This document shows positions 19,641 to 30,310 of a stretch of 64,000 nt of DNA, one piece after another. A model generated the notes under the pieces. That model saw only the letters and a list, made by a program, of their open reading frames with translations, searched no databases and was not told where the DNA came from. The stretch comes from Brachionus manjavacas (taxonomy: Eukaryota; Rotifera; Eurotatoria; Ploima; Brachionidae), in contig JAHQIY010000040.1 of assembly GCA_019054805.1 (NCBI GenBank), positions 248,001-312,000 on the forward strand, written 5' to 3'. A program made the translations under genes and the position numbers. Every line of letters starts with the position of its first letter. Positions within the stretch are counted from its first letter, which is position 1.

Positions 19641-19748
19641 TGACCCTTATTAAGCCGAGGGTCACCTAGCCAACTGACGTTGTTAGTGAATGTAATTTGT
19701 TCACACTATATATAAGCCAATCGCAACATTGCGGTTGGCTATTTTTTT
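19641..19748 (+). ncRNA. qrr: Qrr quorum-regulatory small RNA
   Basis: About 107-nt sRNA. A 5' stem GUGACCCU / AGGGUCAC is followed by the highly conserved Qrr pairing core CCTAGCCAACTGACGTTG, a second stem GTGAA...TTCAC, and a terminator hairpin AGCCAATCGCAA / TTGCGGTTGGCT followed by seven Ts. Qrr RNAs act with Hfq on luxR/hapR, aphA, luxO and luxMN mRNAs at low cell density, driven by phospho-LuxO and sigma-54. Both promoter parts are present here. It is not next to luxO, so it is one of the Qrr2-Qrr5 type copies rather than Qrr1; which one cannot be said. Confidence 0.95.
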
Positions 19749-22251: not shown

Positions 22252-22533
22252 ATGTCTCATAAGGTAATTTTGGATGAAGTAAACTCACAGTTTCGTGTTC
22301 ATCTTGAGGGAGATCACTATGCAATCGTGAAGTTTGAAGACAAAGGTGACGTGTACGCGATCACCTCGACCAAGGTACCAGAGGTGCTTCAAGGTAAAGG
22401 CTACGGGAAAGTGATGATGGAAGCGGTTTTACCGCAAATCGAACAACTTGGTGTAAAGATTGAGCCGATTTGCAGCTATGTTGTGCATTACTTGAATCGT
22501 AATGCTCAGTGGTCTCATCTCAAAGCAGACTAA
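22252..22533 (+). CDS. Small YjdJ-type GNAT acetyltransferase
   Basis: 93 residues, ATG at 22252 with AGGAGTCAAC upstream. It is a minimal GNAT fold: the acetyl-CoA loop VPEVLQGKGYGKVMMEAVLPQI and the C-terminal EPICSYVVHYLNRN segment typical of the YjdJ/YidJ small N-acetyltransferase-like family. Its substrate is unknown; relatives include short proteins acting on free amines. The next gene starts 2 bases after its stop, so the two are translationally coupled. Confidence 0.85.
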   Translation: MSHKVILDEVNSQFRVHLEGDHYAIVKFEDKGDVYAITSTKVPEVLQGKGYGKVMMEAVLPQIEQLGVKIEPICSYVVHYLNRNAQWSHLKAD

Positions 22534-26360: not shown

Positions 26361-26386
26361 AAGCGGAGGGGAACCTCCGCTTTTTT
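26361..26386. terminator. Terminator after the oxidoreductase gene
   Basis: Stem AAGCGGAGG / CCTCCGCTT with a 4-base loop and a six-T run. It touches the end of the convergent LysR gene. Confidence 0.88.
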
Positions 26387-27299
26387 ATAACTGACTGAAC
26401 CTGTCTTGAATGTAGTCGACAAAAGTCTTTATCTGTCCTGGGATAAATTTAGACTGAGCATATTGAGCGATGACCTTGCCTTGGTAATTGCCACCTACAT
26501 GCCAGTCGCGCAGAATTTCAATTACCTCGCCTGACTCCACATAGTCTTGAATAGCAAACTCAGGGAACACTGAAATTCCAACTCCTCGCAATACTGCCTC
26601 GCGACGGATTTCACTGTGGTTGACGGCAAATGAGCCATTAACGTTAATCGATACTTTCTTGTGATTATTGGTAAAGTCCCACACCCGATCGCGGGGGTTT
26701 TCACCAAGACAAAGGCAGTTGTGGGATGAAATATCTTCCGGATGGATTGGGATGCCATGTTGTTCAAGATAATCAGGACGGGCGCACATGACTAGGCGGC
26801 ACTGGGTTAACGTTTTAGCGATTAGCCCTTCCGTAGGTTTGTCAGTGATATGAATAATGACATCGACTTCATCACCAATAGGATCGATATAGTGATCGGC
26901 GACTTTGAGTTGCAGCGCCACGTTAGGGAAGGCATCAATAAAATCTAGCACCATCGGCATCAGAACTTGTCTAGACAAGGCTTTCGGCGCTGCGACGCGC
27001 AGTACACCCGATACTTCGGTTTTGTCCGCTTGAGCCGCTGAGACTGCCATCTTTGCTGAGTTAATCATATCGCTGCACAGGCTATAGACTTCCTGACCAG
27101 TGGAGCTAAGGCGCATTTGCCTTGTGGTTCTCTCAAGCAGCTTCTCTTCTAACGCATTTTCTAAGCGAGTGATTGAACGGCTAACTGATGAAGGTGAAAC
27201 TCCGAGCTTTTTGGCCGTATTGGAAAAGCTGCCAGAGTCGACAACATTAACGAAGATTGCCATTTCAGATAACAGTGGAATAAGCCTATTTGTGTCCAT
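26385..27299 (-). CDS. LysR-family regulator next to the ligase-dioxygenase-exporter operon
   Basis: 304 residues. N-terminal LysR winged helix (MAIFVNVVDSGSFSNTAKKLGVSPSSVSRSITRLE, about residues 13-47), then a substrate-binding domain of two alpha/beta lobes. It resembles the common Vibrio LysR type with R-x-x-L-C-A-R-P-like loops (CRLVMCARPDYL). It is divergent from the argininosuccinate-synthase-like gene across 99 bases, the classic layout of a regulator and its target. The inducer is unknown. Confidence 0.9.
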   Translation of the reverse strand: MDTNRLIPLLSEMAIFVNVVDSGSFSNTAKKLGVSPSSVSRSITRLENALEEKLLERTTRQMRLSSTGQEVYSLCSDMINSAKMAVSAAQADKTEVSGVLRVAAPKALSRQVLMPMVLDFIDAFPNVALQLKVADHYIDPIGDEVDVIIHITDKPTEGLIAKTLTQCRLVMCARPDYLEQHGIPIHPEDISSHNCLCLGENPRDRVWDFTNNHKKVSINVNGSFAVNHSEIRREAVLRGVGISVFPEFAIQDYVESGEVIEILRDWHVGGNYQGKVIAQYAQSKFIPGQIKTFVDYIQDRFSQL

Positions 27300-27398
27300 G
27301 GTGCAAAAATCCTTTGCGTATTCGCTGTATTGTTTCGTTTAAGTTACTTATGGATACTAATTAAGTCAATTGACAGCAGGGAAGGCAGGAAGGACATC

Positions 27399-28610
27399 GT
27401 GAAGAAGTTAAGAAGTATTGAAGATATTCGTACCATCTCTAGTACGGTTAAGCATGTTTTAACTCTGTTTAGTGGCGGTTTGGATAGCACATACCTCCTT
27501 GAGATACTTAAAGAGCAAAAAGTGAAGGTGACCGCATTGGTGGTTGATCTTGGCGAAGGTATTGATGAGTCTAATTTAAACCTGATTGCTGATCACTATG
27601 GTGTGGAACTGATGATCCTAGACGCGAAACAGGAGTTCGTTGAACACAGTTTGGTTTCTGCAATACAAGCACAAGCTCTTTATCTTGGCGATTACCCTGT
27701 TAGTTCTTCATTGTCACGTCCAATCATCGTTAAAAAAGCGGTGCAAGTGGCGCAAAAGCTTAAGTGTGAAGCTATTCTCCACACTGCTAATCAATCTCAA
27801 AATAGCCTCAGACGCCTCAATGGGGCGATTGAAGCGAGTGGCTATCAGGGATATTACGGCTCGCCCTATGAGTACTCCGCACTGACTCGTGAAGAGAAAA
27901 CGGCAGAGCTATTTCATTCTGGTTTAGTCGGATTTAAATCTCGCAATGTTAGCGGTGATGCCAATCTTTGGTGCCGTGAATTTGAGTCTGGTGTTTTGGA
28001 TGACCCAGAATCCTTTACTGTCTCAGAGTCTCTGTTTAGTTGGTCAAAATGGAATCCAGCTAAGCAGCTTGATAACCATCAAATCAAAATAGGATTTCGT
28101 AAGGGGTATCCGGTAACCATCAACGATTTACCGATAAACCTTAAAGAGTTAATTGCTTTCATTAACAACCACGTTGGCGCGTATGAAATCGGTCGATATG
28201 TAGGTTTCGACCACCTAGATGAGGATGAAAAAGTCTTAGAGGTGCGCGAAGCACCCGCTGCTCACATCCTTATGAAAGCATATAAGTTGTTGGAAACAGC
28301 AACTTTACCTACCGATGTTCTCAAAGCGAAAGCGATGCACAACGAAATGTGGACTCAAGAAGCGGTTGAAGGCCGTTGGGGAAGCATGTTGCAGAGCTCA
28401 AGCTATGCGTTCATCGCTCACACTGCCGAGCATGTCTCTGGCAGTGTTTTATTCTCACTATCACGAGGACATGTTCTCGCAACTGGCATAGTTGCAGATG
28501 AGCCTAAGTATCTTCGTGATAGAGATGCATGGGAGGTGCAAACCGCTCATAAAAGAAGTTTGCGTACACTCTCCCCCTCATCATTAAAAAAACAACAACA
28601 AACGGTGTAG
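27399..28610 (+). CDS. Argininosuccinate-synthase-like ligase with altered substrate loop
   Basis: 403 residues from GTG 27399, which has AGGAAGGA 5 bases upstream. N-type ATP-PPi loop SGGLDS at 25-30 and the C-terminal synthase segment ANLWCREFESGVLDDPE correspond to ArgG. The ArgG loop HGCTGKGNDQ, which contacts ATP and aspartate, is replaced by HTANQSQNSLRRLNG. So the ATP-dependent ligation chemistry seems kept while the acceptor or amino partner probably differs. It starts a three-gene operon with an amino-acid dioxygenase and an exporter, not an arginine-synthesis operon. Likely product: a ligated or amidino-modified amino acid. This is inference; no known pathway is assigned. Confidence 0.8.
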   Translation: MKKLRSIEDIRTISSTVKHVLTLFSGGLDSTYLLEILKEQKVKVTALVVDLGEGIDESNLNLIADHYGVELMILDAKQEFVEHSLVSAIQAQALYLGDYPVSSSLSRPIIVKKAVQVAQKLKCEAILHTANQSQNSLRRLNGAIEASGYQGYYGSPYEYSALTREEKTAELFHSGLVGFKSRNVSGDANLWCREFESGVLDDPESFTVSESLFSWSKWNPAKQLDNHQIKIGFRKGYPVTINDLPINLKELIAFINNHVGAYEIGRYVGFDHLDEDEKVLEVREAPAAHILMKAYKLLETATLPTDVLKAKAMHNEMWTQEAVEGRWGSMLQSSSYAFIAHTAEHVSGSVLFSLSRGHVLATGIVADEPKYLRDRDAWEVQTAHKRSLRTLSPSSLKKQQQTV

Positions 28611-28626
28611 TTGCGAGGTGGTCTAT

Positions 28627-29370
28627 ATGGAAATGGTGAAAAAGCCTATCGAGCGTCATGCTTCGGTTATTGCTCAGATACTCAGTCAAAATAGTTATGT
28701 TTTTGTCAGTGGCAAGCAGATGACCAACCTGCTGACAACCAATGTAGACGAGGTGATTCGATTTAAAAACTGTTGGAACCACCTAGAGCGTGATCGCTAT
28801 ATGGCAGATGGCGGGGCGTATCGTTACCGACGTTATGGTCAGTTCCTAAAAGCAAAAGGTGGTAAGCAGATTTCAATGCTGCCCCATGAGCCTTATGTGC
28901 AGCCTTCTTATATCAACTCATTGAATGGTGACATTGAGCGCCACTTTGAGCCTTTAACGGATCGTTTTGTCACATCGCCAATTCTAGAGAGATTGTTGCT
29001 GCTATTAAGTGACGTCTATGACTTGGCAGAAGGACAAGCAACAGATTGGAATATTCGCTTACACCCTTATCGAATCATCGCTGATGAAATCGAACAAGGT
29101 GAGCCAACCCCAGAAGGGTTACATCGTGATGGCGTGACCTACATAGCGTCACTGATGATCAATAAGATCAATGTATCTGGCGGTGAAACCACGATCACAG
29201 ACGAAAATGGCAACACTCTGGAATCCCTGACGTTGGATAAAACATTTGATGTAGTGCTTGCTGATGATGAAAAGACCATGCATGAGGTGACCGCCATCAC
29301 GCCAAACAGTATAGATAAATGCGCGTACAGGGATGTACTCGTTATCGCTTTTACAAAAATGGAGGAATAA
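28627..29370 (+). CDS. 2-oxoglutarate/Fe(II) dioxygenase of the amino-acid hydroxylase type
   Basis: 247 residues from ATG 28627 with GAGGTGG upstream. Iron ligands are H166 and D168 in PEGLHRDGV and probably H219 in KTMHEVTAI, with GGETTI between them. This pattern fits the 2OG-Fe dioxygenase family that includes bacterial L-isoleucine 4-hydroxylases. It is expected to hydroxylate a free or ligated amino acid using oxygen and 2-oxoglutarate. It lies 16 bases after the ligase gene, and its stop is one base from the exporter start, so one mRNA encodes synthesis and export. Confidence 0.82.
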   Translation: MEMVKKPIERHASVIAQILSQNSYVFVSGKQMTNLLTTNVDEVIRFKNCWNHLERDRYMADGGAYRYRRYGQFLKAKGGKQISMLPHEPYVQPSYINSLNGDIERHFEPLTDRFVTSPILERLLLLLSDVYDLAEGQATDWNIRLHPYRIIADEIEQGEPTPEGLHRDGVTYIASLMINKINVSGGETTITDENGNTLESLTLDKTFDVVLADDEKTMHEVTAITPNSIDKCAYRDVLVIAFTKMEE

Positions 29371-29371
29371 G

Positions 29372-30277
29372 ATGACAACGGCTACGGGTCAATTAAAAAA
29401 AGGAAGTTTTAAGTTTCCGTTAACCGAATCATTGCTGCTGCTCGTCGCAGTTTTTTGGGGCACAAGTTATGGACTAACCAAAAGTGCCCTTGTTTACACC
29501 AGCGTTTTAGTTTTCATTTCGATTCGTTTCTCGATCACTTTTCTATGTATGCTACCTGTAGTGATTCGAGACTTTCGCCGCGGGCTCAATAAAGACTGGA
29601 AGATTGCCATACCGACTGGCTTTATCCTATCGGCGATTTTTTTCTGCGAAGTGTTCGGGGTTTCTCAAACCTCAGCATCAAATGCGGCGTTTTTGATTAG
29701 CTTATCGGTGATACTGACGGCCTTTGCCGAGTTGATAATCAATAAGAAACGAGTCAGCAATACCTTATGGGGTTTAACTTTGTGCAGTGTAGTAGGCGTC
29801 TTGTTGCTAACCAGTAACCAAGGTATCGAATTTTCCCTCAATACCGGTGACTATTTTATCCTTGGAGCAGCATTGCTTAGAGCTTTAATGGTGACACTCA
29901 CTAAGCGCTTTACCGAAGGAAAAGAAATTACCACTAGCACGCTTACGTCACTCCAGTCGCTGGTGGTCGCTGGTGTTGCGATATTCGCTGCTATGGCGTA
30001 CTTACCTGCATCTGAATTTGTTATCCCAACCAGTACCGAGTTTTGGATTACAGTGGCTTACCTAGTGTTGTTTTGTACTTTGTTTGCCTTCTATGTTCAA
30101 AACTATGCGGTGCGCAGAACGTCACCGACACGTGTTTCTTTGCTGATGGGCAGTGAGCCATTATTTGGTGCGATATTCGCTATGGTGTGGTTGCAGGAGT
30201 CATTGAGCCTGTTACAGGTGGTTGGTGGGGCACTGATTCTGTTTAGTGTTATTGTCACCTCGACGAAAGAGAGTTAA
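29372..30277 (+). CDS. EamA/DMT exporter in the ligase-dioxygenase operon
   Basis: 301 residues from ATG 29372 with GGAGGAA directly upstream. Ten TM segments in two EamA repeats: ESLLLLVAVFWGTSYGLTKSAL opens the first, and the second ends with MGSEPLFGAIFAMVWLQESL. RhtA/YdcZ-type relatives export amino acids and their derivatives. In this operon it most likely exports the product of the ligase and dioxygenase. A terminator follows directly. Confidence 0.88.
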   Translation: MTTATGQLKKGSFKFPLTESLLLLVAVFWGTSYGLTKSALVYTSVLVFISIRFSITFLCMLPVVIRDFRRGLNKDWKIAIPTGFILSAIFFCEVFGVSQTSASNAAFLISLSVILTAFAELIINKKRVSNTLWGLTLCSVVGVLLLTSNQGIEFSLNTGDYFILGAALLRALMVTLTKRFTEGKEITTSTLTSLQSLVVAGVAIFAAMAYLPASEFVIPTSTEFWITVAYLVLFCTLFAFYVQNYAVRRTSPTRVSLLMGSEPLFGAIFAMVWLQESLSLLQVVGGALILFSVIVTSTKES

Positions 30278-30280
30278 AGA

Positions 30281-30310
30281 AAAATGGGTCACTGCAATGT
30301 GACCCATTTT
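30281..30310. terminator. Bidirectional terminator after the exporter gene
   Basis: Stem AAAATGGGTCAC / GTGACCCATTTT with a six-base loop, between two convergent genes. Confidence 0.9.

Follow-up and report, generated by a model that had tools for sequence, protein, structure and literature searches.

A conserved bacterial operon for the probable synthesis and export of a hydroxylated nitrile amino acid

Nitrile synthetases built on the fold of argininosuccinate synthase (ArgG) are already known from the auranthine pathway: ArtA and NitB are described as catalyzing amide-to-nitrile dehydration only, and auranthine itself as a product of a nonribosomal peptide synthetase (NRPS) (PMC13060819, bioRxiv 2026). 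QueC/ToyM and PesC, as proposed in the same paper, likewise activate an amide with ATP and eliminate AMP; they differ in beginning at a carboxylate, in drawing nitrogen from ammonia or glutamine, and in belonging to other protein families. A precedent of a different kind is given by the Hil and IDO operons of Pantoea, Pseudomonas and Bacillus thuringiensis, in which, according to PMC3684760, a PF10014 oxygenase acts on a free amino acid and is accompanied by a LysR gene in Hil and by an RhtA-type exporter in IDO and in some Hil operons. Here we describe an operon located in a 64,000-nucleotide stretch (the window) of contig JAHQIY010000040.1, from an assembly filed under the rotifer Brachionus manjavacas; it consists of a divergent lysR gene and, on the plus strand, genes for an ArgG-like enzyme, a PF10014 oxygenase and an EamA exporter. 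Comparison of its genes with these systems leads us to propose that the operon probably converts a free amino-acid amide into a hydroxylated nitrile amino acid and exports it.

The window enzyme has in common with ArtA and NitB (the nitrile synthetase of the fungal auranthine pathway, PDB 9leh/9lei) the fold, the Q/S/D amide contacts, and a clade apart from ArgG. The known enzymes belong to an NRPS pathway, whereas the window enzyme is bacterial, is 45% identical to ArtA, and is accompanied by the oxygenase, the exporter and the regulator. With ArgG it shares the fold, the SGGLD ATP loop and part of the citrulline site, but its aspartate loop is changed, it falls in a separate clade, and it misses the curated cut-offs. 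By analogy of gene content, the Hil and IDO operons are the closest architectural precedent; the Hil core comprises HilR, HilP, HilA (PF13640), HilB and HilC (SDR), and the extra enzyme of the window operon is ArgG-like instead. Among the nine proteins scanned between positions 22509 and 30976, there was no PF13640, PF00497 or PF00106 match of the kind expected for HilA, HilP and HilC, and the oxygenase reaches only 42.5 bits with the HilB isoleucine dioxygenase model NF042428, for which the cut-off is 350.

The ArgG-like enzyme

The gene at 27399..28610 (+) encodes a 403-residue protein carrying the Pfam domains Arginosuc_synth and Arginosuc_syn_C, and several of its relatives bear the public names argininosuccinate synthase or argininosuccinate synthase-related. 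It scores 617.5 bits with the NCBIfam model NF038212 (argG_rel), well over the curated cut-off of 425, and lies below the cut-off of each of five curated ArgG models, the best three scores being 196.5 of 334, 189.8 of 512 and 188.6 of 268.2 bits (the last for TIGR00032). The closest PDB structure by sequence is ArtA (335 bits, as compared with 132 bits for the best ArgG), and ArtA is also the closest solved structure by fold, with 380 residues superposing at 1.8 Å. In both of two phylogenetic trees the true ArgG sequences (8 and 6, respectively) are set apart with support of 100/99 and 100/100, ArtA is nested within the ArgG-like family, and the nearest neighbors of ArtA are rhizobial enzymes linked or fused to PF10014 (100/100). 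These trees, the missed cut-offs and the residues described below bear out the suggestion of the original prediction that the protein is not a plain ArgG. Because ArtA, an enzyme that converts an amide to a nitrile, groups with the ArgG-like enzyme, we read the latter as an amide dehydratase, and with fairly high confidence assign it as a probable ATP-dependent nitrile synthetase of the ArtA type. That it is instead one more argininosuccinate synthase is hardly credible, for all its Pfam domains and the public names of its relatives, given that trees, cut-offs and residues disagree and that contig C45 of this assembly carries a separate, true argG closely resembling one from Vibrio.

Residue conservation was counted over 193 aligned rows (the window protein, ArtA and the full list of 191 relatives, P0002-P0192); for the comparison with ArgG we used a smaller alignment that includes 7 ArgG rows. 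Docking and mutation placed Q146, S197 and D199 in contact with the amide in ArtA, as stated in PMC13060819. With the numbering shifted by 29, which works for each of them, these residues become Q175, S226 and D228 of the 9leh chain; in the window protein their counterparts are Q134, S185 and D187. The glutamine is kept in 191/193 rows (the others being one gap and one H), the serine in 193/193 and the aspartate in 192/193. Three ArgG rows have, at the same positions, G, then S or A, then D, and the glutamine position is G in 7/7 ArgG; of the three contacts, Q alone is thus diagnostic, and it sits in the very loop that had been singled out in the original prediction as departing from ArgG.

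The substrate sites of ArgG can be followed in the same rows, taking as contacts, in human ArgG numbering, Y87, S92, R127, S180, S189, E270 and Y282 for citrulline and T119, N123 and D124 for aspartate. On the citrulline side Y87 is kept in 180/193 rows, S92 in 191/193, R127 in 192/193 and S180 in 193/193, although S92 and S180 are variable among the ArgG rows as well; E270 is D or E in 192/193, S189 has become E in 192/193, and Y282, which is Y in 7/7 ArgG, is R in 193/193. On the aspartate side N123 is kept in 192/193, while T119 has become N and D124 has become S, each in 188/193, so that the window protein reads N, N, S where 7/7 ArgG read T, N, D. The SGGLDS motif is present, as had been noted; the stretch LWCREFESG, which had been taken for a retained piece of ArgG, is not one, since Vibrio ArgG rows read AWHISTEGG there, and the E that replaces the first S of AWHISTEGG is a mark of the ArgG-like family (192/193). 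This pattern would suit an enzyme that still transfers AMP to a side-chain oxygen of its amino-acid substrate but in which aspartate no longer serves as the attacking amine and AMP is eliminated.

These same residues bear on the idea that the enzyme is still a ligase, one that takes a hydroxylated amino acid, adenylates its ureido or amide group and couples this group to an amine other than aspartate. Such an enzyme would retain the ArgG fold and ATP site, the four citrulline contacts and N123, as the window protein does; we nevertheless consider it unlikely, as ArtA, the one characterized relative identified within the family, works by dehydrating an amide, and T119 and D124 are replaced throughout most of the family. 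The search for that family returned 888 proteins at an E value of 0.001 or better, and true ArgG may be among those beyond the best 120. A second ArgG-type protein, 30% identical to the window protein and with A at two of the citrulline-contact serines, is present in the genome of locus L025 (G003:C176).

The oxygenase, exporter and regulator, and their conservation as a unit

The second gene, 28627..29370 (+), encodes a 247-residue Fe(II)/2-oxoglutarate amino-acid oxygenase of the BsmA type, which matches 2OG-Fe_Oxy_2 (PF10014) at 205.5 bits (gathering cut-off 23.1). The predicted metal ligands H166, D168 and H219 had been correctly placed in the 247-residue numbering and are conserved in 128/128, 126/128 and 128/128 rows, and R235, present in 128/128, is presumably the conserved arginine that binds 2-oxoglutarate. 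The AlphaFold2 model of the protein has a pLDDT of 91.4. A profile search of structures gave seven matches, with 3pl0 first, isoleucine-4-hydroxylase sixth and TqaL seventh; PMC8948231 names 3PL0 as the dioxygenase MpDO and uses it only as a template for a leucine C4-hydroxylase. Enzymes of PF10014 are reported in PMC3684760 to hydroxylate free isoleucine, leucine and threonine at C4.

The third gene, 29372..30277 (+), encodes an EamA/DMT-family protein (PF00892, 119.7 bits against a gathering cut-off of 28.2, in two stretches) that is probably responsible for product efflux. Diverging from these is the gene for the LysR-type regulator at 26385..27299 (-), with domains PF00126 and PF03466. The gene set, the strands and the gaps of 16 and 1 base between the plus-strand genes were right in the original prediction, provided that ATG 28627 and ATG 29372 are the starts. 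For the ArgG-like gene we prefer GTG 27399 over the longest possible start, TTG 27330, because the relatives P0002 and P0003 are also 403 residues long and many others have 404-406. Between lysR and the ArgG-like gene lies GCAAAAATCCTTTGC (27303..27317), an imperfect dyad and putative LysR-binding site; the pattern GCAA[AT][AT]ATCCTTTGC recurs in 16/16 intergenic regions compared (the window and 15 chosen from 36 loci with lysR), and we infer that the LysR protein acts at this conserved element.

The four genes also hold together elsewhere. The ArgG-like gene is present in 24 of 296 Vibrionaceae genomes (at an E value of 1e-70 or better), and all 24 carry the divergent lysR, ArgG-like, PF10014 and EamA genes in the same order; in the family of genome G464 it occurs in 10 of 343 genomes, again with the same four genes in 10/10, at 42-53% identity. 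An oxygenase match above 226 bits is found in 25/296 Vibrionaceae, namely every one of the 24 carriers of the ArgG-like gene, plus G245. In Vibrio halioticoli the four-gene unit is plasmid-borne. Plasmids of Rhizobium, Agrobacterium vitis and Mesorhizobium have EamA first, then the ArgG-like gene and PF10014, without a LysR match, and the plasmids of root-nodule bacteria that carry the gene are typed as conjugative. Over all loci examined there is a PF10014 match in 44/44, an EamA match in 42/44 and, in 36/44, a divergent LysR match placed as in the window; within this set two loci (L003 and L074) come from one genome and two others (L033 and L068) look like one species, and L001-L008 were originally retrieved by an oxygenase query, although a query with the ArgG-like protein brought up these eight genomes as well. 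The flanking genes vary between genomes. The expectation that the unit would be conserved elsewhere is therefore borne out by the genome-neighborhood comparison: it recurs in distant bacteria, beyond chance. Its distribution is sporadic, with the gene in 5 of 398 genomes of the phylum sample (among them the already known G001 and G028) and in 0 of 14 control genomes, and sampling for rhizobial relatives at class and family level returned the query genome only (1/289 and 1/297).

In three loci (L032, from Rhizobium sp. 007, L072 and L073) the ArgG-like enzyme and the oxygenase are encoded as a single open reading frame (ORF), and fusions account for 8 of 120 listed relatives of one fusion protein. 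The fusion proteins occupy three places in the tree, which could reflect three fusions, or fewer with losses.

The proposed pathway and its alternatives

In the pathway that we propose, the substrate is a free amino acid with an amide that is most likely its side chain, of the glutamine or asparagine class. The carbonyl oxygen would attack ATP in the ArgG-like active site to give an adenylated intermediate (an AMP-imidate), as in ArgG; the changed aspartate site, however, would admit no second amine, AMP would be eliminated, and -CO-NH2 would become -C≡N. The PF10014 oxygenase would hydroxylate this compound too, whether before dehydration or afterwards, the EamA protein would export the product, and the LysR protein would control the promoter. 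The expected product is thus a nitrile and not a condensation product. The original prediction had spoken of an amino-acid-derived metabolite that is hydroxylated, ligated and exported; the hydroxylation and the export remain coherent with what we find, whereas the "ligated" part is disfavored by the grouping with ArtA and the loss of two of the three aspartate contacts.

Two further operons have similar contents. On a Sulfobacillus conjugative plasmid (L085, 3226-7199) a GntR gene, a distant ArgG-like protein, a TauD-family oxygenase and a DMT exporter present the same three functional roles in a row; the oxygenase is unrelated to PF10014 and is nearest to the asparagine oxygenase AsnO (191 bits, the next match being 148), and the ArgG-like protein, at 270.3 bits, is below the NF038212 cut-off. 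A Streptomyces plasmid cluster (L084, 107-8915) encodes a distant ArgG-like protein, an AsnO-like oxygenase (202 bits against AsnO), a cyclase, an AMP-binding enzyme, a carbamoyltransferase, an acyl carrier protein and an aminotransferase. In each of the two ArgG-like proteins the position of the ArtA glutamine is Q, D124 is replaced by T or S and Y282 by R, while T119 is kept; ArgG differs from them in 7/7 rows at the Q, D124 and Y282 positions. D241 of AsnO, an amide-specific residue, occurs in the Sulfobacillus oxygenase, but we dropped it as evidence, since it is also found in clavaminate synthase and a lysine hydroxylase. These parallel operons suggest, without proving, a shared theme of hydroxylation and dehydration of an asparagine- or glutamine-like amide.

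A more specific version of this pathway, which we regard as rather doubtful, would place the hydroxyl on the carbon that bears the nitrile. Glutamine would be hydroxylated at C4 (or asparagine at C3) and then dehydrated, the product in the glutamine case being the cyanohydrin of aspartate semialdehyde; the operon would then export a pro-cyanide amino acid, from which hydrogen cyanide (HCN) would be released outside the cell or in a neighbor after uptake. The fused ORFs and the AsnO-like operon fit with tight coupling of the two steps but do not fix which carbon is hydroxylated. If this version were true, it would amount to cyanogenesis unrelated to HCN synthase, in Vibrio, Burkholderia-group bacteria and rhizobial plasmids.

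Several observations weigh against the proposed pathway. ArtA is 45% identical to the window enzyme and takes part in an NRPS pathway, so that a carrier-bound or different amide may be the substrate of its bacterial relatives; the S and D of its amide contacts are found in ArgG too; and in the tree the Sulfobacillus and Streptomyces proteins are long-branched and placed on the side of ArgG. Membership of PF10014 does not fix the substrate of the oxygenase, and weaker PF10014 relatives are common, with matches in 230/296 Vibrionaceae at an E value of 1e-10. A Bradyrhizobium locus is without an EamA match, as is a Burkholderia cenocepacia locus that stands beside NRPS genes. Finally, the oxygenase step seems to be altered or lost in some lineages, because H-x-N stands in place of H-x-D in the oxygenases P0211, P0213 and that of G245, and the oxygenase gene of G110 (L067) has one in-frame TAG, through a broken gene or a sequencing error. 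In G245 (L091, 5617-8408) lysR, the promoter element, the H-x-N oxygenase and EamA are kept and the ArgG-like gene is gone, and regulator and exporter thus seem to be retained without the pathway; H-x-N does not strictly follow the loss of the ArgG-like gene, as P0211 comes from a contig equal in length to that of the ArgG-like P0015.

The first of these points leads to an alternative in which the nitrile is formed on a peptide, a carrier protein or some other bound amide, the Vibrio operon feeding an unlinked NRPS. Auranthine offers the precedent, and NRPS genes lie near the ArgG-like/PF10014 pair in B. cenocepacia and Mesorhizobium huakuii; we nonetheless find this distinctly improbable, in that 24/24 Vibrionaceae and 10/10 G464-family carriers have the four-gene unit with its own exporter, although no search for NRPS genes was made there. 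Less probable again, and in our view very unlikely, is that the same adenylation and elimination take place on a ureido group, turning citrulline or hydroxy-citrulline into an N-cyano amino acid. Descent from a citrulline-binding fold and the retention of Y99, S104, R139 and S185 speak for it; kinship with ArtA favors a carboxamide, and two positions of the citrulline site have changed almost without exception (S189 and Y282).

Dehydration of the amide of a common free amino acid, the pathway that we consider most likely for this small and widely conserved gene set, would be a new bacterial route to exported nitrile amino acids. A literature search, beyond whose scope many subscription papers lay, found neither bacterial biosynthesis of a nitrile amino acid by amide dehydration nor a bacterial operon combining a nitrile synthetase with an oxygenase, an exporter and a regulator; PMC13060819 alone was judged relevant. 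If the assignment is true, proteins now named argininosuccinate synthase or argininosuccinate synthase-related would be re-read as bacterial nitrile synthetases, and the operon would provide a genetic handle on nitrile amino acids and possibly an enzymatic route to nitriles. It makes a testable prediction, namely that the amide substrate loses 18 Da. A further implication is a possible chemical weapon or signal, encoded both in the shellfish-associated vibrios of the V. tubiashii group and on plasmids of root-nodule bacteria.

Source of the contig and neighboring features

The oxygenase is 98% identical to its V. europaeus counterpart, indicating that the contig (C40) is from Vibrio, of the V. 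europaeus/tubiashii group. The assembly comprises 114 Mb in 61 contigs, with ArgG matches in pieces on contig C2, and looks like a eukaryotic assembly with bacterial contigs inside, the Vibrio contig among them. The G+C content of the operon (0.442) is close to that of its surroundings (0.445 and 0.454). A megablast search of plasmids gave no match to the operon, and a recent plasmid copy of this very operon is accordingly rejected; a viral origin was rejected likewise, as a scan of viral contigs gave no relative.

Other loci show different associations of these families. On a B. cenocepacia replicon (L027, 6983-15161) an ArgG-like protein, a TauD-family oxygenase, a PF10014 oxygenase, an acyl-AMP ligase and an NRPS are encoded in a row. 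On an M. huakuii plasmid (L031, 2155-15164) EamA, ArgG-like and PF10014 genes are near genes for an NRPS and a YqcI/YcgG protein, the latter weakly GntA-like (42.8 of 145 bits). At L092 (6149-8126) and L093 (5962-7939) a different PF10014 oxygenase (37-38% identity) precedes genes for a homoserine/threonine-type exporter and a ThrH-like protein, the families having been scanned for L092 only; neither locus has an ArgG-like match.

Downstream of the last stop codon, a 12-pair hairpin (30281..30310, +) may be a terminator. It had been called a strong one, a description that its composition does not sustain: only 5 of the pairs are G-C, the T tail is modest, and terminator-like sites in the region number 4 as against 3.6 in shuffled sequence. 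About 7 kb upstream of the operon, at 19641-19748 (+), the window encodes a small RNA of the Qrr quorum-sensing type, which matches Rfam RF00378 at 115.6 bits (gathering cut-off 50).

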